Origin: Woeseiaceae bacterium
Lineage (GTDB): Bacteria > Pseudomonadota > Gammaproteobacteria > Steroidobacterales > Woeseiaceae
Reading direction: 5' to 3'
NCBI GenBank assembly: GCA_024640345.1
Contig: JAHEFD010000008.1
Coordinates: forward strand, 1 to 64,000
DNA: 64,000 nt
Position numbers and translations under genes: made by a program. The notes under the pieces were generated by a model that was not told where the DNA came from, ran no database searches, and saw nothing but the letters and a program-made list of their open reading frames with translations. Of this stretch, positions 2,688-18,873 are shown piece after piece. Within the stretch, counting starts at the first letter, position 1. Every line of letters starts with the position of its first letter.

Positions 2688-4762
2688 TTGAGGCCGGAAG
2701 CCCCTCGCCGCCAGGCGCGCACTTTGACGGAGATGGTGTCAATTTCGCGCTGTTCTCCTCATCCGCAAGCAGCGTCGAACTTTGCCTGTTTGATGACGAT
2801 GCGCACGAGGTCAGACGCATCTGCCTGCCTCAGCGAACAGGCGACATCTGGCATGGCTATATTCCGCGATGTGCCGCAGATCAACGCTATGGATATCGCG
2901 TTCATGGCGCATATGATCCCGATGAGGGTCTTCGGTCTAACGCGAACAAATTATTGCTTGACCCTTACGCGAGAAAACTTGAAGGCGAGTTTCGCTGGTC
3001 GCCGGCGGTATTCGACTTCACCGAGAAGAATGGCGCTTACCTGCGGAATGATTTGGACAGTGCGGCTTTCGTACCCAAATGCGTCGTGACCGATCAGCCT
3101 CAACGCGCGAACCCGGCAAGACCCGCAATTCCATGGGCAGATACGATTATTTACGAGGCGAATGTTCGCGGGTACACAATGCGCCACCCGGATGTTTCCC
3201 GGTCTGATCGTGGTCGTTTTCGCGGTATGACGAACGCAAGCATCCTCGCCCATCTCAAGTCGCTGGGAATAACGACGATCGAACTGATGCCTGTGCAGAC
3301 TTTTGTCGATGAGCAATTCCTGGTCAAACGCGGGCTGCGAAACTTCTGGGGCTACAACACACTCAGTTTTTTCGTGCCCGACGCTCGTTACGCGGCCGGG
3401 AACGCACATGCCGAGTTTGTCGAGATGGTCAACACTATCCATGATGCCGGCATGGAAGTTTTGCTGGACATCGCTTACAACCATACCGCGGAAAGTAACA
3501 CGCTCGGCCCGACCGTCAGCTTTCGCGGAATCGATAATCTTTCCTATTACCGGACGTCACCTCGAAACCGCGGTGAGTATGTCAATCACACCGGCTGCGG
3601 TAACACGATCAATACCGACCACCCCCAGGTCCGGGCGCTGATTACGAACAACATGCGTTACTGGGTCGAGGAAATGGGCGTGGATGGTTTTCGATTCGAC
3701 CTCGCGACTATTCTCGGGCGGTCTGCAAATGGCTTTACCAGGGATCATCCCTTGTGGCACACCATCGAAAATGATCCGGTACTGGGCAACGTAAAGCTGG
3801 TTGCCGAACCCTGGGACCCGGGACCGGACGGCTACCAGCTTGGAGAATTCCCGGCGTACTTCGCCGAGTGGAATGACAAATACAGAGACTCGGTGCGTCG
3901 ATACTGGCGTGCCGATCCGGGAGAGGCAGCAAAGTTTGCCGGGCGACTGCTTGGATCGGCTGATGTGTTCGAGAGCAGCAAGCGGGGACCTCACCGCAGT
4001 ATCAACCTTCTGACTGCCCACGATGGCTTCACGCTATCTGATCTCGTTTCCTTCGAGAAGCGACACAACCGCAACAATGGTGAGCAGAACCAGGATGGAC
4101 ACCAGCATAACTTCAGTTGCAACTACGGCGTCGAAGGAGTGACCGCCGATGAGTCAATAAATGCAACCAGGAGAAAACAACGGCTCAACATGCTGGCGAC
4201 ACTTTTGTTTTCTCAAGGCACACCAATGCTGCTCGCTGGCGACGAACTGGGCAATTCCCAACAGGGCAATAACAATGCGTATGCGCAAGATAACGAAACG
4301 GGCTGGCTTGACTGGTCAGGCCTGGAAACCGACCCGGGCTTCGTGACCTCCGTTGCCAGGATGATCGAACTTCGGCGCAACGTTGCACTTGTCAGGCAGG
4401 ACGGATATCTGCACGGCCAGTCAATCAATGACGAGGGGTGGAGGGACATCACGTGGTTGAGACCGGATGGTCAGCCGGTGCTACCCGATGACTGGCCGAA
4501 TATTCTCGCGCTCGCTGTCCTGCTGGCGGCAACATCAGCCTCGCAGCAAGAGCGCTATTTCGCCGCCGCGTTATTTTTCAATCCAACTTCGGAACCCGTG
4601 GAGTTTCAGCTGCCGACGCCACGTGATGGAGCAACATGGCACACGGAATTCGCGACTGGTCCCGGGAAGGCGATCGAGGTCAACCAAACCTCGCTCACAC
4701 TGTCAAACAGATCAATCGCGTTGCTCACACTGACCGGAAACGACGGGGATTCGGAAGCATAA
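2684..4762 (+). CDS. glgX: Glycogen debranching enzyme GlgX (isoamylase-type, GH13)
   Basis: This 692-residue enzyme hydrolyses alpha-1,6 branches of phosphorylase-limit glycogen. Domains in order: an N-terminal CBM48/E-set sandwich (about 1-130, starting SPPGAHFDGDGVNFALFSS), a GH13 TIM barrel, and a C-terminal beta domain. Active-site motifs are visible: GVDGFRFDLA (nucleophile Asp about 339), VAEPWD (acid/base Glu about 375) and LLTAHDGF (Asp about 447). The TTIELMPV and GYNTLSFF segments are typical of GlgX/TreX. Start and glgP stop share ATGA. A 52-base gap follows before the next gene, so the downstream accessory genes may belong to the same transcript. Confidence 0.96.
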   Translation: MIEAGSPSPPGAHFDGDGVNFALFSSSASSVELCLFDDDAHEVRRICLPQRTGDIWHGYIPRCAADQRYGYRVHGAYDPDEGLRSNANKLLLDPYARKLEGEFRWSPAVFDFTEKNGAYLRNDLDSAAFVPKCVVTDQPQRANPARPAIPWADTIIYEANVRGYTMRHPDVSRSDRGRFRGMTNASILAHLKSLGITTIELMPVQTFVDEQFLVKRGLRNFWGYNTLSFFVPDARYAAGNAHAEFVEMVNTIHDAGMEVLLDIAYNHTAESNTLGPTVSFRGIDNLSYYRTSPRNRGEYVNHTGCGNTINTDHPQVRALITNNMRYWVEEMGVDGFRFDLATILGRSANGFTRDHPLWHTIENDPVLGNVKLVAEPWDPGPDGYQLGEFPAYFAEWNDKYRDSVRRYWRADPGEAAKFAGRLLGSADVFESSKRGPHRSINLLTAHDGFTLSDLVSFEKRHNRNNGEQNQDGHQHNFSCNYGVEGVTADESINATRRKQRLNMLATLLFSQGTPMLLAGDELGNSQQGNNNAYAQDNETGWLDWSGLETDPGFVTSVARMIELRRNVALVRQDGYLHGQSINDEGWRDITWLRPDGQPVLPDDWPNILALAVLLAATSASQQERYFAAALFFNPTSEPVEFQLPTPRDGATWHTEFATGPGKAIEVNQTSLTLSNRSIALLTLTGNDGDSEA

Positions 4763-4814
4763 GGGCAGTTGCACCAATCGGTCTCAATAGCGCTATGATG
4801 TCTGTCCAGGGAAT

Positions 4815-5492
4815 ATGATCATGAACAAAATCCTCCTCAGCTTGCTTTTTCTCGTGCTGGCGGCCGCAGCGAAACCGACCGTCGCTCAGGACGAGCGCTC
4901 GCTCTTCACGCTCGATGACCAGGTCTGGGTTCTCTTCTACGACCTGCCATCACGTCGCTTCCGCTCCATCCGCGATGCGTTTATCGGCGGCAGAACAGAT
5001 GATGCCCGTCGCGATCTCGAGGTCAGCGAGGCGTTCCTGCGCGCCGAGATCACGCGCGCGATACCCGTCCTGGTTCCACCGATGACGGAAGTCGCCGATC
5101 GCCTGCGCACAATTCGCGAGCAGATAACGGCGCCAGAAACCACCGTGCGCGACCTGGATCCGGTTTTCGCCAGGGCGCACTGGCTTTTATCACAACACTA
5201 CCTGACGCTGGCGACGGAGGCGCGCGACGCCGGGCGACACAAAAGCGCGGGCAACTATCTTTGGGCCACGGCACACCACATGGAGCGGGCGGTCCTCTGG
5301 TCGGATGCAAAAATTGATCGCAAACTACTCGGTGCGCTCGATAATATGCGGACAATGGCTGACCGATTGCGAAACGGCGACCGGCCAGAACGAGTTTACC
5401 GGGACAAGCCGATCGATAATGCGCGCCGAACGCTGTTCGAGCTGGGACGTTATCTCGATCGCAAGGTTTGGGTCCAACCGGTTCCGATGTGA
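4815..5492 (+). CDS. Predicted exported helical protein of unknown function
   Basis: This 225-residue protein begins with a clear Sec signal peptide: lysine, then LLSLLFLVLAAAA, with likely cleavage after TVAQ. The rest is predicted helical, with charged heptad-like stretches (for example the segment around ARRDLEVSEAFLRAEI) and several conserved-looking Trp/Tyr/His positions (DDQVWVLFYDLPSRRFRSI, HYLTLATEARDAGRHKSAG). It loosely recalls helical periplasmic proteins such as YfdX, but I do not recognise the family. A second in-frame ATG at 4821 is an equally good start; AGGGAA lies just upstream. It sits between glgX and an ATP-grasp gene whose GTG start overlaps its stop (GTGA), so an exported protein appears to be co-expressed with cytoplasmic glycogen enzymes. 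Confidence 0.75.
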   Translation: MIMNKILLSLLFLVLAAAAKPTVAQDERSLFTLDDQVWVLFYDLPSRRFRSIRDAFIGGRTDDARRDLEVSEAFLRAEITRAIPVLVPPMTEVADRLRTIREQITAPETTVRDLDPVFARAHWLLSQHYLTLATEARDAGRHKSAGNYLWATAHHMERAVLWSDAKIDRKLLGALDNMRTMADRLRNGDRPERVYRDKPIDNARRTLFELGRYLDRKVWVQPVPM

Positions 5493-6712
5493 CACAGCAC
5501 GTTATTTTTGTGGCGCCATTCTTTATGGATGCGACGCTGTCATTCATCGAGGGCGCGACGCATCTTCCCGATACGCGGTTGACTGTCATCAGCCAGGACC
5601 CGGCAGAACGAATTCCCGCCCACATCCGGCAACGAGTGGCCGGCCACTGGCGTGTTGAAGATGGACTGGACCCGCAGCAACTGGTCAATGCCGCACGTAA
5701 TCTTGAGCGCAGCTTCGGCAAAGCCAGGAGAATGATTGGTGCACTCGAACAGCTGCAGGTTCCGCTTGCAGTCGCTCGTGAGGCCCTCGGAATCGCGGGC
5801 CTGAGCGTTGATGCCAGCATTAATTTTCGTGACAAGTCACGAATGAAAAACGTGTTGCGCGAGGCCGGAATCCCTTGCGCAAGACACGCCCTGGTCGGCG
5901 AACGAAGCCAAGCAGAAGCGTTCGCCGCGAAAGTTGGTTTTCCCGTCGTTGTAAAACCACCGGCAGGTGCCGGTGGCAAAGGCACGTTCCGACTTGATAG
6001 CAGTCATGACCTCGTGCAATTTCTCGATCGATATCCCGTCGATGCAGAGCGGCCGTCCCTGTTCGAGGAATTCGTGCGCGGCACTGAATACTCGTTCGAT
6101 AGCGTAATGATAGCGGGGCGTCCGGTATGGCATTCCATTTCGCGTTACATGCCCTCGCCGCTGGAGGTCCTGGAAAATGACTGGATACAGTGGTGCGTCA
6201 TGCTGCCACGAGATGTCAGCGGGCCCGAGTTCGATCCGATCAGGAAGGCCGGGTTTGCCGGCGTCAAAGCCCTTGGCCTGGAAACAGGGCTTAGCCACAT
6301 GGAATGGTTCCGCCTCAACGATGGCAGAATTGCCATTTCGGAAGTGGGCGCACGACCCCCGGGCGCTCAATTTACGTCGCTTCTTTCCTACGCACACGAC
6401 ATGAATTTCTACCGCGCCTGGCCGCACCTGCTGGTATTCGACGAATTCGCAGCCCCCGAGCGGCGCTATGCCGCCGGTGCTGCCTATATTCGCGGCCAGG
6501 GCCGCGGCCGGGTACACCGCATAACCGGACTTGACGAGGCGCAGCGTCGATTCGGATCGCTGGTCGTCGAAGCAAAGCTGCCACACGAAGGGCAGCCACC
6601 ATCCGACAGCTATGAGGGTGATGGATACATCATTGTTCGCCACCCCGATACCGAAGTCGTACAACATGCTTTGCAGACCATCGTGCAAATCATTCGCGTC
6701 GAACTGGCCTGA
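5489..6712 (+). CDS. ATP-grasp ligase, paralogue A
   Basis: This 407-residue protein belongs to the ATP-grasp superfamily of carboxylate-amine/thiol ligases. Visible are a pre-ATP-grasp Rossmann-like N-terminus (HVIFVAPFFMDATL), a linker with NFRDKSRMKNVLREAGIPC, the ATP-binding lysine and glycine-rich loop FPVVVKPPAGAGGKGTF, the lid segment FEEFVRGTEYSFD, and the metal-site strand HMEWFRLNDGRIAISEVGAR. It is clearly related to the genes at 11082-12299 and 13859-15079. The start is taken as the GTG at 5489, which overlaps the preceding stop (GTGA); a TTG at 5468 is also in frame. The substrate cannot be read from sequence. No Mur-ligase or carboxylase domain is fused. Confidence 0.88.
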   Translation: MTQHVIFVAPFFMDATLSFIEGATHLPDTRLTVISQDPAERIPAHIRQRVAGHWRVEDGLDPQQLVNAARNLERSFGKARRMIGALEQLQVPLAVAREALGIAGLSVDASINFRDKSRMKNVLREAGIPCARHALVGERSQAEAFAAKVGFPVVVKPPAGAGGKGTFRLDSSHDLVQFLDRYPVDAERPSLFEEFVRGTEYSFDSVMIAGRPVWHSISRYMPSPLEVLENDWIQWCVMLPRDVSGPEFDPIRKAGFAGVKALGLETGLSHMEWFRLNDGRIAISEVGARPPGAQFTSLLSYAHDMNFYRAWPHLLVFDEFAAPERRYAAGAAYIRGQGRGRVHRITGLDEAQRRFGSLVVEAKLPHEGQPPSDSYEGDGYIIVRHPDTEVVQHALQTIVQIIRVELA

Positions 6713-6718
6713 TTGCCC

Positions 6719-7651
6719 ATGCCGCAACGACTGCTACTCGGACCGCAGCGCCCCGTCACCAATCTTGGCCAGGTTGTCGCCGATGCCGATATTCCCCGCG
6801 ATTCTATCGCGGTCATCTCGGCCGGTTGGCAGGAGGCAGAGGGCGATATCGATGATGTGCGGGAGCTTGTTCCCGGCAACCTTGTCGACCTTAATCTTTA
6901 TCACCGTGCCGAAGAAGTATTTTCCGCCGACAAGGATTTGCATGAGGCCCACCGGGAACGCCAGGACCAGTTGAAAGAATTGCAACGACTGTATCGACTG
7001 CGATTGCGACAGTTGATGATTGCGGCCCGACAATTGGGACGCAGTAGCGCTAACGCCGATATGGTTGCCGCGGAAGAGCGTCATGCCATCTCGCAGCTAC
7101 GAGCACTTGACCGGCACCATCTCGGCCGGATCGAATCGATACATAAGGCGTTTGACGACAGGGTCAGCATCGCCTGTTCGGGCGCTCTTCTGGATCAGGC
7201 GAACGCTGTCAGGAAGATCCTGGAGGATTGCCCCACTGTACTCATCACCGGTGGCAACGTCATTGTATTGCTGAACAGGCTTCGACTGTTCGGTGTCGAC
7301 CGCCTGCTTGCAGAAAAACACCTTATCGCCTGGTCGGCTGGCGCAATGGTGCTCTCCGACCTGATTGTTCTTTATCACGACAAAACGCCACAGGGGCGAC
7401 GCGATGCGGAGGTGTTCAGTACCGGAGCCGGCGTGTTGCCCGGGTACGTTTTTTTGCCGGATGCACGACGACGGCTGAAGGACAACGACGCAGTGCGGGT
7501 CGGCCTGTTTTCTCGCAGGTTTTCACCGGCGACGGCAGTCACCCTGGACAGCGGATCCGTACTACAGTTCGAGGGTACCGGCTTCCAACGGGCGGTTGAT
7601 GTCCGGCGCCTGACCAACAAGGGTCGGCTGGCCAGGGTACGAACACCTTGA
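6719..7651 (+). CDS. Peptidase S51 / cyanophycinase-like protein
   Basis: This 310-residue protein has a class I glutamine-amidotransferase-like fold of the S51 type. The N-terminal strand RLLLGPQRP, the VLITGGNVIVLLNRL segment and the nucleophile elbow AWSAGAMVLSD (Ser about 206) match the GGN/D...GxSAGA pattern of dipeptidase E and cyanophycinase; here a Trp replaces the usual residue before Ser. Between the first strands and the nucleophile lies a long charged helical insertion (about residues 75-130), making it longer than PepE (about 230). Family members hydrolyse Asp-X or beta-Asp-Arg peptides. It starts at ATG 6719, six bases after paralogue A; an in-frame TTG lies at 6713. Its stop is coupled to the next gene. 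Hydrolysis of an amide product made by the neighbouring ligases is inference. Confidence 0.8.
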   Translation: MPQRLLLGPQRPVTNLGQVVADADIPRDSIAVISAGWQEAEGDIDDVRELVPGNLVDLNLYHRAEEVFSADKDLHEAHRERQDQLKELQRLYRLRLRQLMIAARQLGRSSANADMVAAEERHAISQLRALDRHHLGRIESIHKAFDDRVSIACSGALLDQANAVRKILEDCPTVLITGGNVIVLLNRLRLFGVDRLLAEKHLIAWSAGAMVLSDLIVLYHDKTPQGRRDAEVFSTGAGVLPGYVFLPDARRRLKDNDAVRVGLFSRRFSPATAVTLDSGSVLQFEGTGFQRAVDVRRLTNKGRLARVRTP

Positions 7652-8784
7652 ACGCATTACTGAGAAAACTGTTCCGCAAGGGAACGCCGACTGCGGCGGA
7701 CATCAATGCTTTTTTGAGTACCGCGAATTTTCCGCTGGTGGACGGAAGCGACGTTACCTTTGTATTTCGCGGCCAGGCTGACGCCGTCAATTTGCGCTGC
7801 TGGATATCCGGTCTTAACACCGCCCAGCCTTTTCAGGCGCTGGCCGATACAGACCTGTGGGCGGTGACAATTGAACTGCCTGCAGGATCCCGCATCGAGT
7901 ACAAATTTGAAGTTGTAAAAAGTGGCCATCGACAGCTGATCCTGGACCCACTCAATGATGTCCTGGCGCACGATCCATTTGGTGCCAACTCGGTATGCCA
8001 GGGATCCGGTTACGTTCGTCCGGCCTGGACACTGCATGACCCGGAAGCACGCAAAGGGTCCATAGCAATCGAAACGATCGACAGTCGGCAATTCAAAGAG
8101 AAGCGAGAGATCCAGGTTTATTTGCCGGCACGATTTCGTCGCAACAGACGTTATCCACTGCTGATCGTCCACGACGGCACGGACTATCTTCGCTTCGCGG
8201 ACCTGCAAATCGTATTGGATAATCTGACCCACAATCTTGAAATTCCACAGATGATTGTGGCACTGACCCAGTCACGCGATCGACTGAAGGAATACGCGGC
8301 AGACGACAGGCATGCTGCTTACCTCGCGGACGAGCTTCTGCCTTATCTGTCAGGCACGTTCCCACTAATAGATGAACCGCGGTCGCGGGGTATCATGGGA
8401 GCCAGCTTTGGCGGTGTTGCGGCATTGCACACGGCATGGCGATTCCCAGGTCGTTTCGGTCGCCTTTTATTGCAGTCCGGTTCATTCGCTTTTAGCGACC
8501 TGGGACGCCACGAGCGCGGCCCGGTATTTGACCCGGTTGTTCGGTTTATGAACGAGTTTCGCGAGAAGCCGGGGCAGCCTGCAGAGAAAATGTACATGAG
8601 CTGCGGTATTTACGAGTCTCTGATTTACGAAAACCGATCACTCGTGCCGCTCCTGCAGAAACAGGGAATCGAAATCCGGTTCGAGGAAGCAAGGGACGCT
8701 CATAACTGGGAAAACTGGCGCGATCGGTTGCAAAATGGGCTCTCATCACTTTTTCCCGGACCCGTCTGGATGGTTTACGAGTAA
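7648..8784 (+). CDS. Alpha/beta-hydrolase esterase with N-terminal E-set (CBM48/AMPK-like) domain
   Basis: This 378-residue protein uses a TTG start that overlaps the S51 gene's stop (TTGA). Residues about 25-125 form a beta-sandwich with the pattern of CBM48/AMPK-beta or enterochelin-esterase N domains (VTFVFRG...VNLRCWISG...LWAVTIELPAGSRIEYKFEV, then LDPLNDVLAHDPFG). Residues about 150-370 are an esterase-D/Fes-type hydrolase: the strand YPLLIVHDGTDY, nucleophile motif GASFGG (Ser about 253) and catalytic-His motif AHNWENWRD (His about 352). No signal peptide is seen, so it should be cytoplasmic. The N domain could place the enzyme on an alpha-glucan or could be structural. It probably cleaves an ester; the substrate is unknown. 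Confidence 0.85.
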   Translation: MNALLRKLFRKGTPTAADINAFLSTANFPLVDGSDVTFVFRGQADAVNLRCWISGLNTAQPFQALADTDLWAVTIELPAGSRIEYKFEVVKSGHRQLILDPLNDVLAHDPFGANSVCQGSGYVRPAWTLHDPEARKGSIAIETIDSRQFKEKREIQVYLPARFRRNRRYPLLIVHDGTDYLRFADLQIVLDNLTHNLEIPQMIVALTQSRDRLKEYAADDRHAAYLADELLPYLSGTFPLIDEPRSRGIMGASFGGVAALHTAWRFPGRFGRLLLQSGSFAFSDLGRHERGPVFDPVVRFMNEFREKPGQPAEKMYMSCGIYESLIYENRSLVPLLQKQGIEIRFEEARDAHNWENWRDRLQNGLSSLFPGPVWMVYE

Positions 8785-8854
8785 CATCAGCAAAATCCAG
8801 ACTAATTATCATGCTGAGATTTTCTAGTTTGCAGCACTAACCAAGGACAATATT

Positions 8855-10099
8855 GTGGCAATCAAAACACGTCGAATCGGCTTATCTCTTGGCGCCGATA
8901 TTTGCTGGCCAATTTGTTACGAAGCACTTCTGAAGAAACTCGACCTGACAATACCGGACGGCAGGGACAAGATCCGTTTCGATGTTGAGCGTGTTTTTAT
9001 CGAACCATTTGATTTAAAACAGCCATGCGAGTATGACCTTGTTATCGACCGACTGACACACTGGTACCACACGTCACGTGAATGGATAAAGAAATCGATT
9101 CTTACTGACGATCTTTACGTCTTCAACAATCCCTGGTCGCTGCAATCGATGGAAAAGCAGACAACCTACTGCGCAATGATGCGTCTCGGTTTTCCAGTTC
9201 CCGATACCTGGCTGATCCCGCCAAAGTCATACGTCGAATCAGCCGATCTGCAGCCGACCCTCAAAAAGTATGCCCGGCTGTTTGACCTCGGTGCGATCGG
9301 CGACAAGATCGGTTATCCGTTATACATGAAGCCATATGACGGCGGGGCGTGGGTCGGCGTCACCGGAATCGATGATCAGCAATCCCTGCTGAGCGCCTAT
9401 GATGATAGCGGGACACGCGTCATGCACCTGCAAAAAGGGGTAGAAGCACACGACGCTTTCGTGCGTTGTATCGGGCTCGGTCCTCAATGGCGTTGCGTGA
9501 ACTACGACCCGGCCGCGCCCCTTCATGACCGATACCAGATGGACCTCGACTTCCTGCCGATCAGCGAAGAAACACATCTCGCCAACATGACAATGGTCAT
9601 CAATGCATTTTTTGGCTGGGATTTTAATTCCTGTGAATCCTTGCGCAGCAAGGGCATATGGCACCCTATCGATTTCGCGAATGCCTGTCCTGACTCACAG
9701 GTGACCTCACTGCACTTTCACTTTCCGTGGTTGATCAAGTCCAATATTCGCTGGTCTGTGTTTTGCGCAGCTACGAAGCGACGCATGAAAACGAACCTGG
9801 ACTGGCAGCAATATTTTGACATTGCGGACCAGGACAAACCGTTCGAGGAGAAACTCGCAGAATATGTTGCTATTGCAGAGCGGCATTTTGACGCCGAGCG
9901 ATTCAACGAATTCTGTGAGGAGCACCTTTCGGACCTGGATGAGATTGCGAACGAGTTCTTTACGACTGATCTTGTCAAGGACGCGATTCGACAGAAAGTT
10001 GAGGCACTTTATCCTGCGCACGAGCTGGATGAGTTTACGGAATTGTTCTGGAATCGCGTACAGGATTCCGTTCGCCTCGAAGGTGGACAGCCCGGATGA
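8855..10099 (+). CDS. ATP-grasp family protein (family distinct from the three paralogues)
   Basis: This 414-residue protein starts at GTG 8855, with AAGGAC seven bases upstream. Features point to an ATP-grasp fold: an N-terminal alpha/beta part, the motif NNPWSLQSMEKQTTYCAMMRLG that precedes the ATP-binding core in ligases of this type, the lysine loop YPLYMKPYDGGAWVGV, and a late segment NSCESLRSKGIWHPIDFANA that may replace the usual E-x-N metal site. A characteristic stretch CPDSQVTSLHFHFPW follows. The C-terminal 130 residues are helical and acidic. It is not closely similar to the 405-residue paralogues. Its stop overlaps the next esterase start (ATGA), so ligase and esterase are translationally coupled. 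Confidence 0.8.
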   Translation: MAIKTRRIGLSLGADICWPICYEALLKKLDLTIPDGRDKIRFDVERVFIEPFDLKQPCEYDLVIDRLTHWYHTSREWIKKSILTDDLYVFNNPWSLQSMEKQTTYCAMMRLGFPVPDTWLIPPKSYVESADLQPTLKKYARLFDLGAIGDKIGYPLYMKPYDGGAWVGVTGIDDQQSLLSAYDDSGTRVMHLQKGVEAHDAFVRCIGLGPQWRCVNYDPAAPLHDRYQMDLDFLPISEETHLANMTMVINAFFGWDFNSCESLRSKGIWHPIDFANACPDSQVTSLHFHFPWLIKSNIRWSVFCAATKRRMKTNLDWQQYFDIADQDKPFEEKLAEYVAIAERHFDAERFNEFCEEHLSDLDEIANEFFTTDLVKDAIRQKVEALYPAHELDEFTELFWNRVQDSVRLEGGQPG

Positions 10100-10827
10100 G
10101 CAGGAAAGAGGTCTTTCGCTGGCATTCGCCACACCTTGAACGGGAAGTACAGCTTGTGCGCTGGGGAGAAATCGGCACACCCGTGCTGTTGTTTCCGACA
10201 GCGGGCGGTGACGCCGAAGAAGTTGAGCGATTCCACCTTGTTCGGATGCTTGAACCGCTAATGGATGCCGGGCGCATCAAGGTCTATTCAACTGACAGCA
10301 TCGCTGGAAAGGCCTGGATCTCGGGCGAGCACTCCGGCGAATACTGTTCGAAATTGCAGAATCTCTTCGACGCATTTATATACAAGGAAGTTGGCGAGGC
10401 CATACGCAAGGACTGTAATTCACCAGACATTGAAATTGTCGCAACAGGCGCCTCGATTGGCGCATTTAATGCCGTTGCAACAGTATGCCGTCATCCGGAT
10501 GTATTCAAATTGGCAATCGCGATGAGCGGAACTTTTGACTTGTCAAAATACCTCGAGGGTCGCTTCAACCAGGATTTCTATTTTTCGTCGCCGTTACACT
10601 ATCTGCCTGACCTGAGCGGACCGCCACTCGATGCGCTCCAGCGACGCCTTATACTCCTGCCGACAGGAGAAGGTGACTACGAGGACATTGGCGAGTCGTG
10701 GAGACTCGCGAAGGTTCTTGGCGCGAAAGGCGTGCCGAATCGCGTTGACCCATGGGGGCCCGGATATCATCACAATTGGGTGACATGGCGCGAAATGCTG
10801 CCCAAATACCTGGACGAATTCGTCTGA
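10096..10827 (+). CDS. Alpha/beta-hydrolase esterase, short form
   Basis: This 243-residue single-domain hydrolase is related to esterase D/Fes-type enzymes and to the hydrolase half of the gene at 7648. It shows the N-terminal strand GTPVLLFPTAGGDAEE (oxyanion side), the YSTDSIAGKAW segment, nucleophile elbow ATGASIGAFNA (Ser about 120), and the C-terminal HHNWVTWREMLPKYL, whose adjacent histidines (about 225-226) would supply the catalytic base. It lacks the N-terminal sandwich found in its relative. No signal peptide is visible. It is coupled by ATGA to the ATP-grasp gene at 8855. A ligase next to an esterase suggests that a product is made and then released, or that an activated intermediate is proof-read; this is inference. 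Confidence 0.82.
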   Translation: MSRKEVFRWHSPHLEREVQLVRWGEIGTPVLLFPTAGGDAEEVERFHLVRMLEPLMDAGRIKVYSTDSIAGKAWISGEHSGEYCSKLQNLFDAFIYKEVGEAIRKDCNSPDIEIVATGASIGAFNAVATVCRHPDVFKLAIAMSGTFDLSKYLEGRFNQDFYFSSPLHYLPDLSGPPLDALQRRLILLPTGEGDYEDIGESWRLAKVLGAKGVPNRVDPWGPGYHHNWVTWREMLPKYLDEFV

Positions 10828-10866
10828 TGATATGTGTCAGACCCAGTCAAACTTGCGGAGAAATCA

Positions 10867-10920
10867 ATGGATGAAAGAGAACAGGCGGAACTGGCCGCGC
10901 TACCGGCAATCCTCCAGTAA
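10867..10920 (+). CDS. Possible 17-residue peptide ORF, with an in-frame open extension after its stop
   Basis: A GGAG at 10857-10860 sits six bases before an ATG at 10867, an ideal ribosome-binding arrangement, 39 bases after the esterase stop. The ORF encodes MDEREQAELAALPAILQ then TAA. The same frame stays open past this TAA to a TAG at 11044-11046, reading LIVNRRPQHND, then SSDPAWRSIFEDANYLAQRF and further residues, which look protein-like. This could be a real tiny peptide, a 59-codon gene broken by one stop, or chance. A GTG at 10927 could start the second half on its own. Its position among ATP-grasp ligases, one of them PGM1-like, makes a ligase substrate conceivable, but nothing in the sequence proves it. 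Confidence 0.3.
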   Translation: MDEREQAELAALPAILQ

Positions 10921-11046
10921 TTGATTGTGAATCGCCGACCACAGCATAACGATTCTTCCGATCCGGCCTGGCGTTCAATCTTCGAAGACGCTAATTATCT
11001 TGCACAACGGTTTGGCGGGGTCTATTCACGCAATCAGCGAGACTAG

Positions 11047-11078
11047 TAAAAAAAGGACGGGATCCGACCCTTTTTTTA
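11047..11078. terminator. Bidirectional terminator between convergent genes
   Basis: TAAAAAAAGG at 11047-11056 pairs perfectly with CCTTTTTTTA at 11069-11078, around a 12-base loop that itself contains GGATCC. The A-run and T-run flank a short GC-rich hairpin on both strands, so it can stop transcription from the left-hand esterase operon and from the ATP-grasp gene ending at 11082 on the minus strand. Its shape also resembles short palindromes seen near REP elements, so a mobile origin is possible. Confidence 0.7.
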
Positions 11079-11081
11079 ATT

Positions 11082-12299
11082 TTACTCTGCGTAAAGCTGC
11101 AGATCCGTCCCAACGGCGTCAGCCATTGCCAGCGTTTGCTGCAGGTCAGGGTGCCGCAACATCACGAAGCCGTCGGAGACCAGGGTCTTCTGCCAGTCCC
11201 GTCGCGGCGTTCCCGGCTGCAGCAGGGTATTCCAGACGACATGCTGACCAAACTGTTGCTGTAGCCGGTCGACGCCCTCGATCCGCGAGATTCGGCCGAC
11301 GCCTCGCGCTCGCTTGAAAATGATCGCCACATTGTAAAGACGCTCGATCTCCTGATCGATCCTGCCCTGGGTCACCGCCTGCCCCCAGGCGCGAAACACG
11401 TCGAAATCACATGCGTACTTCATCTGGTCGACCTGGTGGGCTCCCGGCGGCCGGGCGCCGATTTCACCAAACACGACCTCACCGTCCGCTTTTCGATACC
11501 ACTCCATGTGCGTAAAACCGGTATCGAACTCCAGCGCCCTGATGACCTCATAACCCATACGAATGCCGTCCGCCAGGTCCGGCTGGTCGACGTTCCTCAG
11601 CGCGATAACCTGCGGGCTGATCCACTCGTTGCTGCGGGCGATCAACGGTCGTGGTCGATACCAGGCCACATTGTAATAAGCGATTTTGCCGCCGATGGTA
11701 ATGGTATCGAAAGTAAACTCCTCCCCATCGACGAATTCCTCAACGCTGACCGTTGATACATGCCTCAAGCGTGGTAGTACCGCACGAAGATCATCGACAT
11801 TGTCTACCCGATACGTGTCGGCCGATCCGGCGCCTGCGATCGGTTTCAGTATCAGCGGAAACCCGATCTTTTCTGCCGCTTCCCAGCAACCCGCGATACT
11901 GTCAACAGCCACATGCTTCGGGGTGCGTATCTTCGCCGCATCCAGCGCAACCTTCATCGCCTCTTTGTCGCGGAAGCGATGCGCCTGTTCGATACTTAAT
12001 CCCGATACCCCGAAATGTTGCCGCAATTCCGCGGCAAGCATTATGCCCGGCTCCCAGAGACATTCGATCCTGTCGATGGCCTGGCCACGAAGCTGCGCAT
12101 GCATTTGTTTAATAACATCTGCACTGTTCCACAGGGACGGCACCTGGATGTATTCATCCAGCGAGCGCCGAACCAGTTCCGGCAACGCACCCGTTCCCTG
12201 GTCCCCGATGCCGATGACCCTGGCGCCACACTCTGCAAGGCCGCGTGTAAATTCTGGCATGTCAGCCGGATAACCCGGCGATATGATTAATACATTCAT
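11082..12299 (-). CDS. ATP-grasp ligase, paralogue B
   Basis: This 405-residue ATP-grasp protein has the same layout as the genes at 5489 and 13859. It has the pre-ATP-grasp domain MNVLIISPGYPADMPEFTRG, HRFRDKEAMKVALDAAKIRTP, the lysine loop FPLILKPIAGAGSADTYRV, the lid VEEFVDGEEFTFDT, and the metal strand HMEWYRKADGEVVFGEIGAR followed by PPGAHQVDQM. The start is placed at the ATG at 12299 because homologous sequence begins there; the frame continues 13 codons upstream without similarity. It is the only minus-strand gene in the cluster and diverges from glgA across 90 bases, so it has its own promoter and may be regulated apart from the others. Confidence 0.88.
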   Translation of the reverse strand: MNVLIISPGYPADMPEFTRGLAECGARVIGIGDQGTGALPELVRRSLDEYIQVPSLWNSADVIKQMHAQLRGQAIDRIECLWEPGIMLAAELRQHFGVSGLSIEQAHRFRDKEAMKVALDAAKIRTPKHVAVDSIAGCWEAAEKIGFPLILKPIAGAGSADTYRVDNVDDLRAVLPRLRHVSTVSVEEFVDGEEFTFDTITIGGKIAYYNVAWYRPRPLIARSNEWISPQVIALRNVDQPDLADGIRMGYEVIRALEFDTGFTHMEWYRKADGEVVFGEIGARPPGAHQVDQMKYACDFDVFRAWGQAVTQGRIDQEIERLYNVAIIFKRARGVGRISRIEGVDRLQQQFGQHVVWNTLLQPGTPRRDWQKTLVSDGFVMLRHPDLQQTLAMADAVGTDLQLYAE

Positions 12300-12389
12300 T
12301 TTTGTTTTGACATTATTTCCGGTTGCACCGCGGCACAAGTCGCGGACGGGTTAGAATAGCACTTTAGTCATAACAATCCCGGCCTCCCA

Positions 12390-13862
12390 TTGCCTCACAA
12401 GAAACCACTGAAAATTTGCCTGGCCAGTTCGGAATTCGCGCCGCTGGCCAAGACAGGCGGCCTCGCTGACGTCAGCGCATCGCTCGCGGCGTATTTACAT
12501 ACGGCTGGTCACGACGTTCGGCTGATCCTGCCTTTCTATGACACGCTGGACACGAGCGGCCTCGACATCGTGCCCGTTGATTACCTGCAGCAGGTACCGA
12601 TCAGCATCGGTCCACGTCACGGTCATTTTTCGATCGATATGACGACGTTACCGGGAAGCGGCCTGCCTGTGTACCTGTTACGTTGCCCCGACCTGTACGA
12701 GCGCGGCGGCCTTTATACTCGGGACGACGACGAGCACCGCCGCTTCATACTGCTGTCACGCGCCGCCATCGAAATGTGCCAGCACATGGGATTTGCACCG
12801 GATATATTTCATTGCCACGACTGGCACACGTCGTTGATTCCTCTGTATCTGAAAACGACATATGCGTGGGACAAACTTTTTTCCAGAACCCGGTCGGTAT
12901 TAACGATACATAATATCGGTTACCAGGGTATCTTCGACGCTGGCATCATCGGCGACCTTGACCTGAAGGGTGGCGAAGGCGAGCTCCACCAGGACGACCT
13001 GAAACTGGGTCGAATCAACTTCCTGAAAACCGGCGTTCTGCACGCACACCAGCTCACGACGGTCAGCCCGACTTACGCCCAGGAGATTCTTGGAGACGAA
13101 TACGGCATGGGTTTGCAGGACCTGCTAAGGACTCGGAGCAATTCGCTGACAGGTATCCTCAATGGCATCGATGAAGCGGAGTGGAACCCGGAGTCCGATC
13201 CACTGATACCAAAACCCTATTCCGCAAAAAATCTCGCCGGAAAAGCTGCCTGCAAACTCGCACTGATGGATGATCTTGAATTGAAGGGCGGCGGCGAACG
13301 CCCGGTCATTGGTATCGTGACACGGCTCACCAGTCAGAAAGGCATCGACCTGATGCAAAAGGTATTGCCCGGGCTGCTTCATGAGCGCGACTTTGCACTC
13401 GCCGTTTTGGGCAGTGGCGAACCACGGTACGAACGGTTCTTTGCCTCGCTGCAGAATTCACTACGTGACTCTGTTTGCTTCTATCGCGGTTACAGCAACA
13501 AGCTGGCGCACTGGATTGAAGCCGGGAGTGATATTTTTCTGATGCCGTCCCTTTACGAGCCATGCGGACTCAACCAGATGTACAGCCTGAAATATGGCAC
13601 AGTGCCAATCGTACGACAGACCGGCGGTCTTGCCGATTCCGTCCAGCTGATCGATCCCGGCGCAGCCACCGGCACGGGTGTCGTTTTTCGTGACTACAAC
13701 GAAAAAGCACTTAAATGGGCCATCAATGCCGCACTGGACCTGTATGCCAACAAACCGGTTTGGAAAAAAATCATGAAAAACGGCATGGCAATGGATTTTT
13801 CGTGGAATCATCAGGGTTCCATGTACGTGGATCTGTTTCGAACGTTGAGTGCATCACGATGA
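12390..13862 (+). CDS. glgA: Glycogen synthase (ADP-glucose-dependent, GT5)
   Basis: This 490-residue enzyme transfers glucose from ADP-glucose to the non-reducing end of alpha-1,4-glucan. The N-terminal GT5 signature LASSEFAPLAKTGGLADV contains the ADP-glucose-binding KTGGL. Further motifs are FHCHDWHTSLIPLYLK, LTIHNIGYQGIFD, TVSPTYAQEI, and the C-terminal acceptor/nucleotide loop PSLYEPCGLNQMYSLKYG. The length is typical (about 480). It starts with TTG at 12390; no strong ribosome-binding site is visible, so translation may be weak. The stop overlaps ATP-grasp paralogue C by ATGA, which directly couples glycogen synthesis to a ligase. Confidence 0.96.
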   Translation: MPHKKPLKICLASSEFAPLAKTGGLADVSASLAAYLHTAGHDVRLILPFYDTLDTSGLDIVPVDYLQQVPISIGPRHGHFSIDMTTLPGSGLPVYLLRCPDLYERGGLYTRDDDEHRRFILLSRAAIEMCQHMGFAPDIFHCHDWHTSLIPLYLKTTYAWDKLFSRTRSVLTIHNIGYQGIFDAGIIGDLDLKGGEGELHQDDLKLGRINFLKTGVLHAHQLTTVSPTYAQEILGDEYGMGLQDLLRTRSNSLTGILNGIDEAEWNPESDPLIPKPYSAKNLAGKAACKLALMDDLELKGGGERPVIGIVTRLTSQKGIDLMQKVLPGLLHERDFALAVLGSGEPRYERFFASLQNSLRDSVCFYRGYSNKLAHWIEAGSDIFLMPSLYEPCGLNQMYSLKYGTVPIVRQTGGLADSVQLIDPGAATGTGVVFRDYNEKALKWAINAALDLYANKPVWKKIMKNGMAMDFSWNHQGSMYVDLFRTLSASR

Positions 13863-15079
13863 ACGTCATTTTTATCGAGCCTTCATTCCCGTATAACCAG
13901 CGCGAGTTTGTGCGTGCTTTGCACGCTGCCGGAGCCAACGTCATCGGCATCGGCGAACGTCCCGCCTCAAGCCTGAGTGCAAACCTGAAGGAATGGCTTT
14001 CGGAGTACGTTCAGGTGTCGTCCGTCGTTCATGAGCCGTCATTGCTTGAAGCGGTAACCGCGGTGCAACGCGCCGTCTGGGTCGACCGGCTGGAGGCCAC
14101 CGTTGAGGCCCATATAATGGCCGCGGCATCAGTCCGCGAGGCGGCGGGGATTCCCGGCACATCGGTCAAAACGGCGTATCTGTGTCGTGACAAACCGGCG
14201 ATGAAGGAAGCGCTGCGGGAAGCGGGTATTCCATGTGCACAGTCGACCCGGGCGAAATCGGCGCAGGATGCTCGCGACTTCGCATCTGCCGTGGGTTACC
14301 CCTTGATCATCAAACCACCTGCCGGTGCCGGCGCGTCTGCAACCTATCGCGTCGATGACGATCGCGAACTCGAATCGGTTATCACCGAGTCGGGCCTGGC
14401 GGACGGGAAAGCAGTCGCGATCGAAGAGTTCATTGAGGGGCACGAGGGATATCTCGACACACTGACAATCAATGGCGAGGTGACTCACGAGTTCATCACG
14501 CATTATTACCCCAATGTGCTGACGGCCATGCGCGAGCGCTGGATATCACCCCAGATGGTCACGACGAACCGAATCGAGGCTCCCGGTTACGGCGAAGTCC
14601 GGAAAATGGCGCGTGACGTTATCAGGATTCTGGACATCGGCACCTCTGCGACGCACATGGAATGGTTTGCAGGGCCGAAGGGGTTGAAGTTTTCCGAGAT
14701 CGGATGTCGCCCGCCCGGCGTGGGCCAGTGGGATGTCTACAATGCGGCGAACGAATTCGATCTTTATTTCGAATGGGCACACGCGCTCATCCATGGAAGC
14801 ACCCACACCAAACCGTCACGTCGTTATGCGGCTGGCATGATCGCCCTGCGCCCTGGTCGCGATGGCCAGATCACCGGGTACTCCGGTGTCGATGCTATCA
14901 GTCGCCGATATGGTGAAAACATCGTAGCCGCACATTTTCCGGATGCCGGTACCCCGACTCAGCCCGTCGAAGGTGGTTACATGGCGAATGCCTGGATGCG
15001 CATGCGGCATCCTGACTACGACCAGTTGCGTGCAATCCTCAGCGACGTCGGTGAAACCATCAAGGTACACGCCGCCTGA
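13859..15079 (+). CDS. ATP-grasp ligase, paralogue C
   Basis: This 406-residue paralogue of the genes at 5489 and 11082 starts at the ATG overlapping the glgA stop; the frame is open further upstream inside glgA, but homology begins here (MNVIFIEPSFPYNQREFVRA, matching paralogue B's start). It shows CRDKPAMKEALREAGIPCAQ, the lysine loop YPLIIKPPAGAGASATYRV, the lid IEEFIEGHEGYLDT and the metal strand HMEWFAGPKGLKFSEIGCR then PPGVGQWD. It lies between glgA and glgB, 27 bases before the glgB GTG, and so is embedded in the synthetic half of the pathway. The conserved core suggests all three paralogues use similar chemistry on different acceptors or donors; this is inference. Confidence 0.9.
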   Translation: MNVIFIEPSFPYNQREFVRALHAAGANVIGIGERPASSLSANLKEWLSEYVQVSSVVHEPSLLEAVTAVQRAVWVDRLEATVEAHIMAAASVREAAGIPGTSVKTAYLCRDKPAMKEALREAGIPCAQSTRAKSAQDARDFASAVGYPLIIKPPAGAGASATYRVDDDRELESVITESGLADGKAVAIEEFIEGHEGYLDTLTINGEVTHEFITHYYPNVLTAMRERWISPQMVTTNRIEAPGYGEVRKMARDVIRILDIGTSATHMEWFAGPKGLKFSEIGCRPPGVGQWDVYNAANEFDLYFEWAHALIHGSTHTKPSRRYAAGMIALRPGRDGQITGYSGVDAISRRYGENIVAAHFPDAGTPTQPVEGGYMANAWMRMRHPDYDQLRAILSDVGETIKVHAA

Positions 15080-15106
15080 CCGGCTGCGCCAGGGACATCC
15101 GGATAC

Positions 15107-17299
15107 GTGCGCGCGCAAAAGCTAAGAACAGATAACGAGGAAGTTATACGCCTGCTCGAAGCGCGTCATCATGATCCGTTTTCCATCTTGGGGCGGCATG
15201 GGAGCGAACGCAAAGGATTCATTCGTGCGTTCATGCCTCGTTGCCGTTCGATACACGTCGAGACCTACGACCGTCCGATGAATCGCGTCGGCGATACGGA
15301 TATTTTCGAATATGCCGGTGACCTGTCCGGCATTCCACAGCGTTACCGCCTGCTCGTTGAGAACGAGCACGGGCAGTCCTGGGAAATCCATGATCCCTAT
15401 TGCTTCGGTCCCGTAATCGGTGATGCCGAGCTGAAAAGCTTCAACGCCGGCACCCACCGGGCGGCACAAACCATCCTGGGTGCCAATGGCCGCTGCATCG
15501 ACAATATTCACGGCACGCTATTCGCCGTGTGGGCGCCGAACGCCGGACGCGTCAGCGTGGTTGGTGAATTCAACGAATGGGATGGACGATGTCACCCGAT
15601 GCGCATTCGTGGCGAAAGCGGCGTGTGGGAGCTGTTTATTCCAGGACTCGTCGAAGGGCGGTACAAATTTGAACTGCGACAACGCGACGGCGATGGCGTA
15701 CTTCTGAAGTGCGATCCGTACGCGCGTGCCAGCGAACTAAGGCCCGCTACGGCGAATCTCATTGCTGGGCCGGATAACTATGCGTGGCAGGACCAGGCAT
15801 GGCTCGACAAACGCAAGGCCGATGAGTGGCGACATGCACCCCTCTCCGTGTACGAGGTACACCTCGGGTCATGGCGTCGGAATTCAGACGGTTCTTTCAA
15901 AAATTACAGAACGCTCGCCAGGGAACTGGTCGACTATGTCAGCGATCTCGGGTTCACGCATATCGAGTTACTGCCCGTCACCGAACATCCCCTGGACGAA
16001 TCGTGGGGATACCAGACCACCGGCTATTTCTCGCCAACCAGTCGTTTCGGATCACCGGACGATTTCCGCTGGTTTGTTGATCATTGCCATCAGCGCAATA
16101 TCGGCGTGATCCTTGACTGGGTGCCGGCACACTTTCCGCGCGATGCTCACGCGCTTGCCAATTTCGACGGCACGAACCTGTACGAATACCATGATCTGCG
16201 CAAGGCCGAACACCGCGACTGGGGTACGCTGGTTTTCAATTATGAACGCGACGAGGTCAAAAGCTTCCTTATATCCAGCGCCTTGTTCTGGCTGCGGGAC
16301 TTTCACCTTGACGGGCTGCGTGTAGATGCCGTCGCTTCGATGATTTACCTGAACTTTTCGCGGCAGTCAGAAGACTGGGTGCCGAATCGATTCGGCGGTC
16401 ATCAAAATCTCGAGGCTGTCGATTTCATATGCGAAATGAATAACGCGGTCGCCGAAACATGCCCTGGTTGCCTCATGATTGCAGAAGAGTCGACCGACTG
16501 GGAAGGTATAACGAGTTCGACATCGCGTGGCGGCCTGGGCTTTCATTTGAAATGGAATATGGGGTGGATGCACGACACGCTTAATTATATTGCCAAGGAT
16601 TCAATCCACCGCAAGCATCACCAGGACTGGCTGACTTTCGCACCAACCTATGCATTTGACGAAAATTTTATGCTGCCGCTGTCTCACGATGAAGTCGTGC
16701 ACCTGAAGCGATCGCTGCTGGGCAGAATGCCCGGCGATGAATGGCAGCGCCTGGCGAATTTGCGGCTTCTTTACTTCTACCAATGGTGTTTCCCGGGTAA
16801 AAAGCTGCTCTTTATGGGCGGTGAGCTGGCGCAGCCCACGGAATGGGATGCCGGCAGTAGCCTGCAATGGGATCAGTCCGATAAAAACGGGCCAAAAGGT
16901 GTTGCCTGCCTGTTGCGGGAACTGAACAGGCTGCACCGGTCAATGCCGGCAGTAAGCTATTGGGACTTTGACAAGAAGGGGTTTGAGTGGATTGATGGCG
17001 ACGATCGGGATCGCTCGGTCATCGCTTTCATGCGTCATGCGCCAAACGAGACGGCGATCATCGTGCTGAATTTCACGCCTGTCGTGCGCTACGACTATCG
17101 AATTGGTGTACCGTATTCCGGGAGTTATCATGAAGTGCTTAACTCTGATGATGTCCGATTCGGCGGTAGCGGCGTCAACAACGGCGGTGAAATCGCGAGT
17201 GAAAAGACAGGTATTCATGGTCGCGCGCAGAGTATCCGATTGACATTGCCGCCGCTTGCGGGACTCATCATTCAACGGTCCACCATTCCGGCCACGTGA
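15107..17299 (+). CDS. glgB: 1,4-alpha-glucan branching enzyme (GH13)
   Basis: This 730-residue enzyme creates alpha-1,6 branches in glycogen. Order: an N-terminal N1 domain (HHDPFSILGRHG), CBM48 (LFAVWAPNAGRVSVVGEFN then EWDG), and the GH13 barrel with YEVHLGSW, ELLPVTEHPLDESWGYQ, GLRVDAVASMIYL (nucleophile Asp), CLMIAEESTDWEG (acid/base Glu) and MLPLSHDEVVH (third Asp), then a C-terminal beta domain. Length and motifs are standard for a proteobacterial GlgB. It starts with GTG at 15107, with AGGGA about a dozen bases upstream. Its stop overlaps the GTG of the PGM1-like ligase (GTGA), an unusual partner for a branching enzyme. Confidence 0.97.
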   Translation: MRAQKLRTDNEEVIRLLEARHHDPFSILGRHGSERKGFIRAFMPRCRSIHVETYDRPMNRVGDTDIFEYAGDLSGIPQRYRLLVENEHGQSWEIHDPYCFGPVIGDAELKSFNAGTHRAAQTILGANGRCIDNIHGTLFAVWAPNAGRVSVVGEFNEWDGRCHPMRIRGESGVWELFIPGLVEGRYKFELRQRDGDGVLLKCDPYARASELRPATANLIAGPDNYAWQDQAWLDKRKADEWRHAPLSVYEVHLGSWRRNSDGSFKNYRTLARELVDYVSDLGFTHIELLPVTEHPLDESWGYQTTGYFSPTSRFGSPDDFRWFVDHCHQRNIGVILDWVPAHFPRDAHALANFDGTNLYEYHDLRKAEHRDWGTLVFNYERDEVKSFLISSALFWLRDFHLDGLRVDAVASMIYLNFSRQSEDWVPNRFGGHQNLEAVDFICEMNNAVAETCPGCLMIAEESTDWEGITSSTSRGGLGFHLKWNMGWMHDTLNYIAKDSIHRKHHQDWLTFAPTYAFDENFMLPLSHDEVVHLKRSLLGRMPGDEWQRLANLRLLYFYQWCFPGKKLLFMGGELAQPTEWDAGSSLQWDQSDKNGPKGVACLLRELNRLHRSMPAVSYWDFDKKGFEWIDGDDRDRSVIAFMRHAPNETAIIVLNFTPVVRYDYRIGVPYSGSYHEVLNSDDVRFGGSGVNNGGEIASEKTGIHGRAQSIRLTLPPLAGLIIQRSTIPAT

Positions 17300-18873
17300 A
17301 AAGACAGTCAATGAATCGAGAATCCGAAAGGCGCCAAGAAATCGAAAAGTTTGAATTGCTTAAACCAGGGCTCGCCCGCATATGGGCAGAGTTACAAACG
17401 GATTCAGACTACGAGCACACCTCGGTCATCGTCCCATCGCTGAGCGTCAACCAGGAGGAACTCTCCAAGGTACTGGGGTCGTCGCACTATGAAGAGCGTT
17501 TGCTCTTCGCTCTGATCCGGTTAAAAAATCCGAATGCCCGACTCATTTATGTAACCAGCCAGCCAATTCATCCGGATATTGTCGATTACTATCTGCACCT
17601 TCTGGACGGTGTCACCCTGAATCAGGCACGTCAGCGACTGCTGATGGTCTCCGTTTGCGATGCCAGTGCGCGGCCGCTTAGCGAGAAGATTCTTGAGCGA
17701 CCTCGGTTCCTGGCACGCTTGCGAAACCAGATTGGTGACCCAAGTCGAGCGTATCTGACCTGCTATAACTCGACCGTACTTGAACGACGACTTGCCGTCG
17801 CCCTGGGCATTCCACTGAACGGTGCGGACCCGGAACTACTCTATTACGGGACGAAGTCAGGCAGCCGAGAAGTGTTTCGACAGACGGGCGTCAGTTTTCC
17901 CGCCGGCTACGAGGACCTCCGATCCAGGGAAGAGATTATCCAGGCACTGGCACGCCTCGCGAACGACCGACCTGGAATTTCACGTGCAGTAGTCAAGCTG
18001 AACGAGGGATTTGCCGGAGAAGGAAACGGCGTATTCACTTATCCGAAGCAACGCGACGAGGACGCGATCCGAAATGCACTGCGTGATCTGAAATGGTCAT
18101 CCAGGCAGGAGACCCTTGACACGTTTATGAAGAAATTCGAGGAAATGGGGGGCATCGTAGAGGAAATGATCGAGGCCGAGGAGACACGGTCACCCAGCGT
18201 CCAGATGCGCATTTATCCGGAGGGCACCAGCACGCTTGTTTCAAGTCACGAACAAGTGCTCGGTGGATCAACGGGTCAGGCATATCTCGGGTGCCGCTTT
18301 CCGGCCAATGGCGCATACCGAAGCACCCTTCAGAATGAAGCGGAGAAAATCGGCGTACTGCTTAGTGAGAAAGGTGTCGTCGGTCGTTTCGGCATCGACT
18401 TCCTGGTTACGCGCAGCGCGGGTGGACAGTGGGTACACCACGCTATAGAAATCAATCTTCGAATGGGAGGCACAACACCACCGTTTCACGCGCTCGAGTT
18501 CCTGACTGGTGGCACCCTTGATATTGCCAGCGGTCTTTTTCGCGCGCCGGACGGCCATGAGAAATACTACAGCGCTACCGATAACCTGAAATCTGCTGCC
18601 TATCGTGGTCTTCTACCCGAGGACCTGTTTCAGATCATCACTCGGCACGGACTCGGTTTCAGGCACTCGACGGACACCGGCGTTCTTTTCTACATGATCG
18701 GTGCCTTGTCGCAATACGGCAAAATTGGAATGACCTGCATAGGCAACAGCGCCGATGAGGCAAAGACACTCTTCAAAAAGACCGTCGAATTGCTGGACGC
18801 ACAAACCGATAGCGACAGCCACAGCCACGGCATCACCGCACCAATTTTCGACCGTTACCTCACAATGGAATAG
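17296..18873 (+). CDS. PGM1-like ATP-grasp peptide ligase
   Basis: This 525-residue protein has the layout of the PGM1 family: a pre-ATP-grasp domain (about 20-190, with TSVIVPSLSVNQEEL and NARLIYVTSQPIHPDIVDYY), an ATP-grasp core (about 190-410, with AVVKLNEGFAGEGNGVF as lysine/glycine loop, GGIVEEMIEAEE as lid, RFGIDFLVTR and AIEINLRMGGTTPPF as the metal site, where both E and N are retained), and a C-terminal domain with GVLFYMIGALSQYGKIG. In the streptomycete pheganomycin pathway PGM1 joins an amino-acid derivative to a ribosomal peptide; transferring that function here is inference. The GTG at 17296 overlaps the glgB stop; ATG at 17311 is an alternative. Confidence 0.82.
   Translation: MKRQSMNRESERRQEIEKFELLKPGLARIWAELQTDSDYEHTSVIVPSLSVNQEELSKVLGSSHYEERLLFALIRLKNPNARLIYVTSQPIHPDIVDYYLHLLDGVTLNQARQRLLMVSVCDASARPLSEKILERPRFLARLRNQIGDPSRAYLTCYNSTVLERRLAVALGIPLNGADPELLYYGTKSGSREVFRQTGVSFPAGYEDLRSREEIIQALARLANDRPGISRAVVKLNEGFAGEGNGVFTYPKQRDEDAIRNALRDLKWSSRQETLDTFMKKFEEMGGIVEEMIEAEETRSPSVQMRIYPEGTSTLVSSHEQVLGGSTGQAYLGCRFPANGAYRSTLQNEAEKIGVLLSEKGVVGRFGIDFLVTRSAGGQWVHHAIEINLRMGGTTPPFHALEFLTGGTLDIASGLFRAPDGHEKYYSATDNLKSAAYRGLLPEDLFQIITRHGLGFRHSTDTGVLFYMIGALSQYGKIGMTCIGNSADEAKTLFKKTVELLDAQTDSDSHSHGITAPIFDRYLTME

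Follow-up and report, generated by a model that had tools for sequence, protein, structure and literature searches.

What is a short ORF with a well-placed ribosome-binding site doing among ATP-grasp ligase genes? The question is raised by positions 10857-11046 of the window (the whole stretch of DNA analysed, 64,000 nucleotides from a draft Woeseiaceae genome). The initial annotation described a GGAG and an ATG at ideal spacing, a 17-codon ORF closed by TAA and a further 41 sense codons in the same frame, all of which are present in the sequence. It proposed that the peptide might be a ligase substrate or, alternatively, a leader or a recently broken small gene. We conclude that the interval is very probably a recently inactivated copy of a 59-codon small protein gene.

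The interval and its surroundings

The interval lies in a 254-base gap (10828-11081), delimited by junction comparison, between the stop codons of two convergent genes. The upstream gene (10096-10827, plus strand) encodes an esterase-like alpha/beta hydrolase (Pfam Esterase) and the downstream gene (11082-12299, minus strand) an ATP-grasp-like ligase, as judged from Pfam scans (for the ligase, also NCBIfam). On the plus strand, a Shine-Dalgarno-like GGAG (10857-10860) is separated by a six-base spacer from the ATG (10867-10869) of the 17-codon ORF (10867-10920), which ends with TAA at codon 18 (10918-10920). The frame then runs through the 41 sense codons (10921-11043) to a TAG (11044-11046). 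A scan between 10600 and 11300 gave no promoter-like site.

The TAG is followed by a palindrome (11047-11078, plus strand; TAAAAAAAGG...CCTTTTTTTA), an A-run/T-run hairpin with z -2.73 on the minus strand and -1.74 on the plus strand. It was not called by a simple terminator scan. From its sequence and folding it might serve the two convergent genes as a two-way transcription terminator.

The surrounding cluster (180-18873) contains glycogen genes (phosphorylase, debranching-type amylase, starch synthase and branching enzyme) with several ATP-grasp ligases set between them, one of which (17296-18873) carries a PGM1_C domain. It also holds two esterases and an S51 peptidase, which we take to be of the cyanophycinase type. 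A 414-residue ORF at 8855-10099 matches nothing in Pfam at E up to 1 and has only weak, ATP-grasp-like matches in NCBIfam; it is perhaps a divergent ligase. We found no literature on ATP-grasp ligases with glycogen neighbourhoods.

The open run after the TAA has no significance of its own and is covered by chance: when runs of 41 codons are drawn at random from the window's dinucleotide model, 28% are free of stops. Since such runs are so common, relatives had to decide.

Full-length relatives and the premature stop

The window frame, translated through its stop, was used as a query against 107 genomes of the family, of which five matched, the window's own included. The other matches were G005 (69% identity over 65 residues, without a stop, E 6.5e-27), G026 (62% over 61 residues, E 3.2e-22), G034 (38% over 55 residues) and G008 (47% over 36 residues). 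A TAA reported in the G026 match sits 5' of the G026 ATG, outside the gene. When the frames are aligned, the closest are 71-76% identical to G005, and G034 stands at 42%. The frames of the window, G005 and G026 each span 59 codons from the same ATG and that of G034 spans 57. In each of the five copies whose start can be read (the window, G005, G026, G034 and G137), a GGAG-type site stands ahead of the aligned ATG.

Larger samples extended this set only slightly. Across the order, 396 sampled genomes yielded 10 matches (E 0.01 or better). Seven of these, including the window, are credible; G066, G011 and G350 (E 0.003-0.007) were set aside after reading their frames. This added G042 and G137, the latter truncated where its contig ends. 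Another sample, of 395 genomes centred on G005, again returned the six other carriers (E 0.001 or better), the window's genome not being listed. No carrier beyond the window was seen in class-wide (369) and phylum-wide (398) samples. A search of genome contigs matched the Woeseiaceae MAG OFTM117 and Woeseia sp. SS_bin_42, with identities that fit G005 and G026. The frame had no match in phages or viral contigs and a single chance-level one in plasmids (E 0.7, 45% over 31 residues), and we rejected a phage, plasmid or viral origin on these results.

The parent family is therefore sporadic and narrow, with seven genomes found and two of the other copies decayed: in the G008 copy neither the aligned start codon nor the frame survives, and the front part of the G042 copy is disturbed. 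Decay is thus common among these genes. Homology to full-length 59-codon genes lifts the window frame above chance, and the biological unit is the whole frame and not the 17 codons. The short ORF is probably the surviving 5' part of the gene, its ATG being common to the intact relatives, and 10921-11046 its remaining codons and original stop.

At codon 18, TAC (Tyr) is found in G005, G026, G034, G137 and the decayed G008, and TGC (Cys), as read by eye from the frame, in the degenerate G042. TAA occurs in the window alone (none of the six relatives). In third-position and pN/pS tests, which assume independent sites and draw on few sequences, 33 of the 53 differences between the window and G005 over the whole frame fall at third codon positions (P 1.5e-5), pN is 0.15 and pS 0.84, and the two other frames give pS below pN. 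The third-position excess is present both before and after the TAA; 3' of it, third positions account for 23 of 39 differences from G005 (P 0.0009) and 25 of 45 from G026 (P 0.0018). This argues that the frame was under protein selection until recently. Counted per branch, the P value for the window is only 0.04.

Strong relaxation on the window branch is not apparent in these comparisons, nor is a clear loss of constraint after the stop. There, pN is 0.17 between the window and G005, similar to the 0.20 between G005 and G026, and the window branch carries six amino-acid changes besides the stop (G005 three, G026 nine). An unrelaxed 3' part fits a very recent break, but it also fits an assembly error or a frame that is still used.

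Of these, an error of sequencing or assembly, which would leave the gene intact, is the better alternative, though we consider it unlikely. The genome is a draft (192 contigs, 91.8% complete), the TAA is one base away from the relatives' codon and constraint is not lost beyond it. However, the neighbouring genes run uninterrupted over their full length, and the independent decay of the G008 and G042 copies indicates that loss is common. A frame in use despite its stop, either as two peptides through stop and restart or by read-through to the 59-residue protein, is very improbable: a TTG does stand directly 3' of the TAA and constraint beyond it is not visibly relaxed, but no ribosome site is seen ahead of the TTG and none of the six relatives has the stop.

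We therefore favour a recently broken gene. The full-length homology, the protein-like evolution before as well as after the TAA and the stop where relatives have tyrosine are all established by sequence comparison, and the window copy is an ordinary pseudogene of a small gene that is itself rare. The initial annotation had listed this only as an alternative, and the existence of intact 59-codon relatives with a tyrosine codon in place of the TAA now bears it out.

Genomic location of the small gene

The junction was compared across 14 esterase loci (the window and 13 others), leaving out three loci with esterases of 34-35% identity (L015-L017) and the remaining weak matches. Of the 13, one (L011) lacks a ligase within the locus and one (L014) is cut by a contig end; the convergent ligase is retained in the other 11, which come from 10 genomes. 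The small gene was seen in none of these 11 junctions. Their gap is 2-39 bases in 10 cases, against 254 in the window, and 267 in the eleventh (G054), where the sequence is other than the small gene. The G054 stretch (L009, about 2224-2493) is bounded by inverted copies (GCCTGCA..TATTCATGAG-like), which might reflect the arrival of some unrelated small element at this junction too.

The six other copies of the gene lie in varied neighbourhoods, none with the esterase-ligase pair, according to ORF lists (for G137, of one flank only). The G026 copy lies between presumed YaiI-like and dienelactone-hydrolase-like genes, the G034 copy near a presumed hemerythrin-like gene, and the G042 copy precedes what is presumably a peptidase-like gene (all names read from ORF starts). 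The YaiI-like gene is present in 25 of 40 relatives, and in the 20 other YaiI-like gene loci examined the small gene is absent within the flanks covered. The G005 neighbour is a poor anchor, its next best relative (G017) being only 42% identical. Given unrelated neighbours and absence at comparable sites, the place of the gene differs from genome to genome. It is missing from all 11 related junctions that keep the flanking genes and does not belong to the ligase cluster.

Because the gene is absent from the relatives' junctions, the 254-base gap looks like a lineage-specific gain. It is unlikely that the gene stood here in a common ancestor and was lost several times. The small gene would have landed between the two convergent genes in this lineage and the nonsense mutation would have come later, so that the product may now be at most a 17-residue fragment. 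Neither element ends nor a target duplication were found at the junction, and there are no direct repeats in 10780-11140. An upstream TCAGACCC stretch and the downstream palindrome were considered as repeats or insertion-element ends and rejected, each being single-copy in the genome. That an undescribed small gene moves among intergenic sites of the Woeseiaceae group, being gained and decaying repeatedly by a route not visible as a known element, is a tentative idea that we rate as rather doubtful.

The distribution of the gene also bears on the suggestion that a ribosomally made peptide, 17 or 59 residues long, is the substrate of a PGM1-type or other ATP-grasp ligase of the cluster. The PGM1_C domain of one ligase (E 9.6e-12) speaks for it. 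The peptide, however, is missing from all 11 related esterase-ligase junctions and so is not kept with the ligase cluster, the six other copies do not adjoin such ligases, and the closest copies are conserved across all 59 residues with no leader-core pattern visible. We regard this proposal as hardly tenable. Least probable of all is a leader peptide or attenuator of a downstream gene: a short ORF with a good ribosome site does precede a possible terminator, but on this strand no further long gene begins until 12390, past the convergent ligase, Rfam gave no match at E up to 1, and the frame codes for a conserved protein through and past the stop. Peptide substrate, leader and stop-restart were all rejected on these points.

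For the interval itself, a false lead (a peptide substrate for ligases) is removed and a well-supported pseudogene takes its place. Beyond it, the small-protein family, which is not in the libraries scanned, is undescribed and apparently relocating. Its sporadic, repeatedly decayed copies at unrelated places provide a modest example of small-gene turnover.

The intact protein and comparison with known systems

Library searches say little about the intact protein. There was no Pfam match over the cut-off, none in NCBIfam at E up to 1 (with the read-through window frame as the only member scanned), none in PADLOC, only matches above E 0.1 in PHROGs and nothing below E 0.9 among solved structures searched by sequence. 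The fold predicted from a three-row alignment is helical (pLDDT 70.5, pTM 0.46), and Foldseek returned uninformative helical matches (best E 1.5). This modest model suggests a soluble helical hairpin. The scattered occurrence of the gene, with two further copies apparently decayed, leads us to guess at a small accessory, protein-binding factor that is dispensable to the cell. No literature on Woeseiaceae small proteins was found and, judged by title, nothing related on Woeseiaceae pseudogenes.

One described family with some resemblance is DUF2934 (Pfam PF11154). Residues 16-38 of the G034 member resemble it (E 0.0011, below the cut-off), and by eye the helix, turn and tryptophan spacing are alike. 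This was the sole match among four members, at 19 bits against a curated cut-off of 22, and the window's frame gave none; membership was rejected on this score. Profile-profile comparison of thin alignments gave a gapless 31-column alignment (E 0.043, probability 1.2%).

PGM1 of pheganomycin biosynthesis is described in PMC8939145 as the enzyme that couples a nonproteinogenic amino acid with a small core peptide. The window resembles that system in having a PGM1_C ligase about 6 kb away, but differs in that the association of peptide and ligase is not conserved in its relatives. The closest comparison is with the 59-residue family itself (G005, G026, G034 and G137, with the decayed G008 and G042). 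The window copy is homologous to its intact genes over the full length and has the start and ribosome site in common with them, and its frame has the same 59-residue length as G005 and G026. Unlike them, it is interrupted by a stop at codon 18 and occupies another genomic place.
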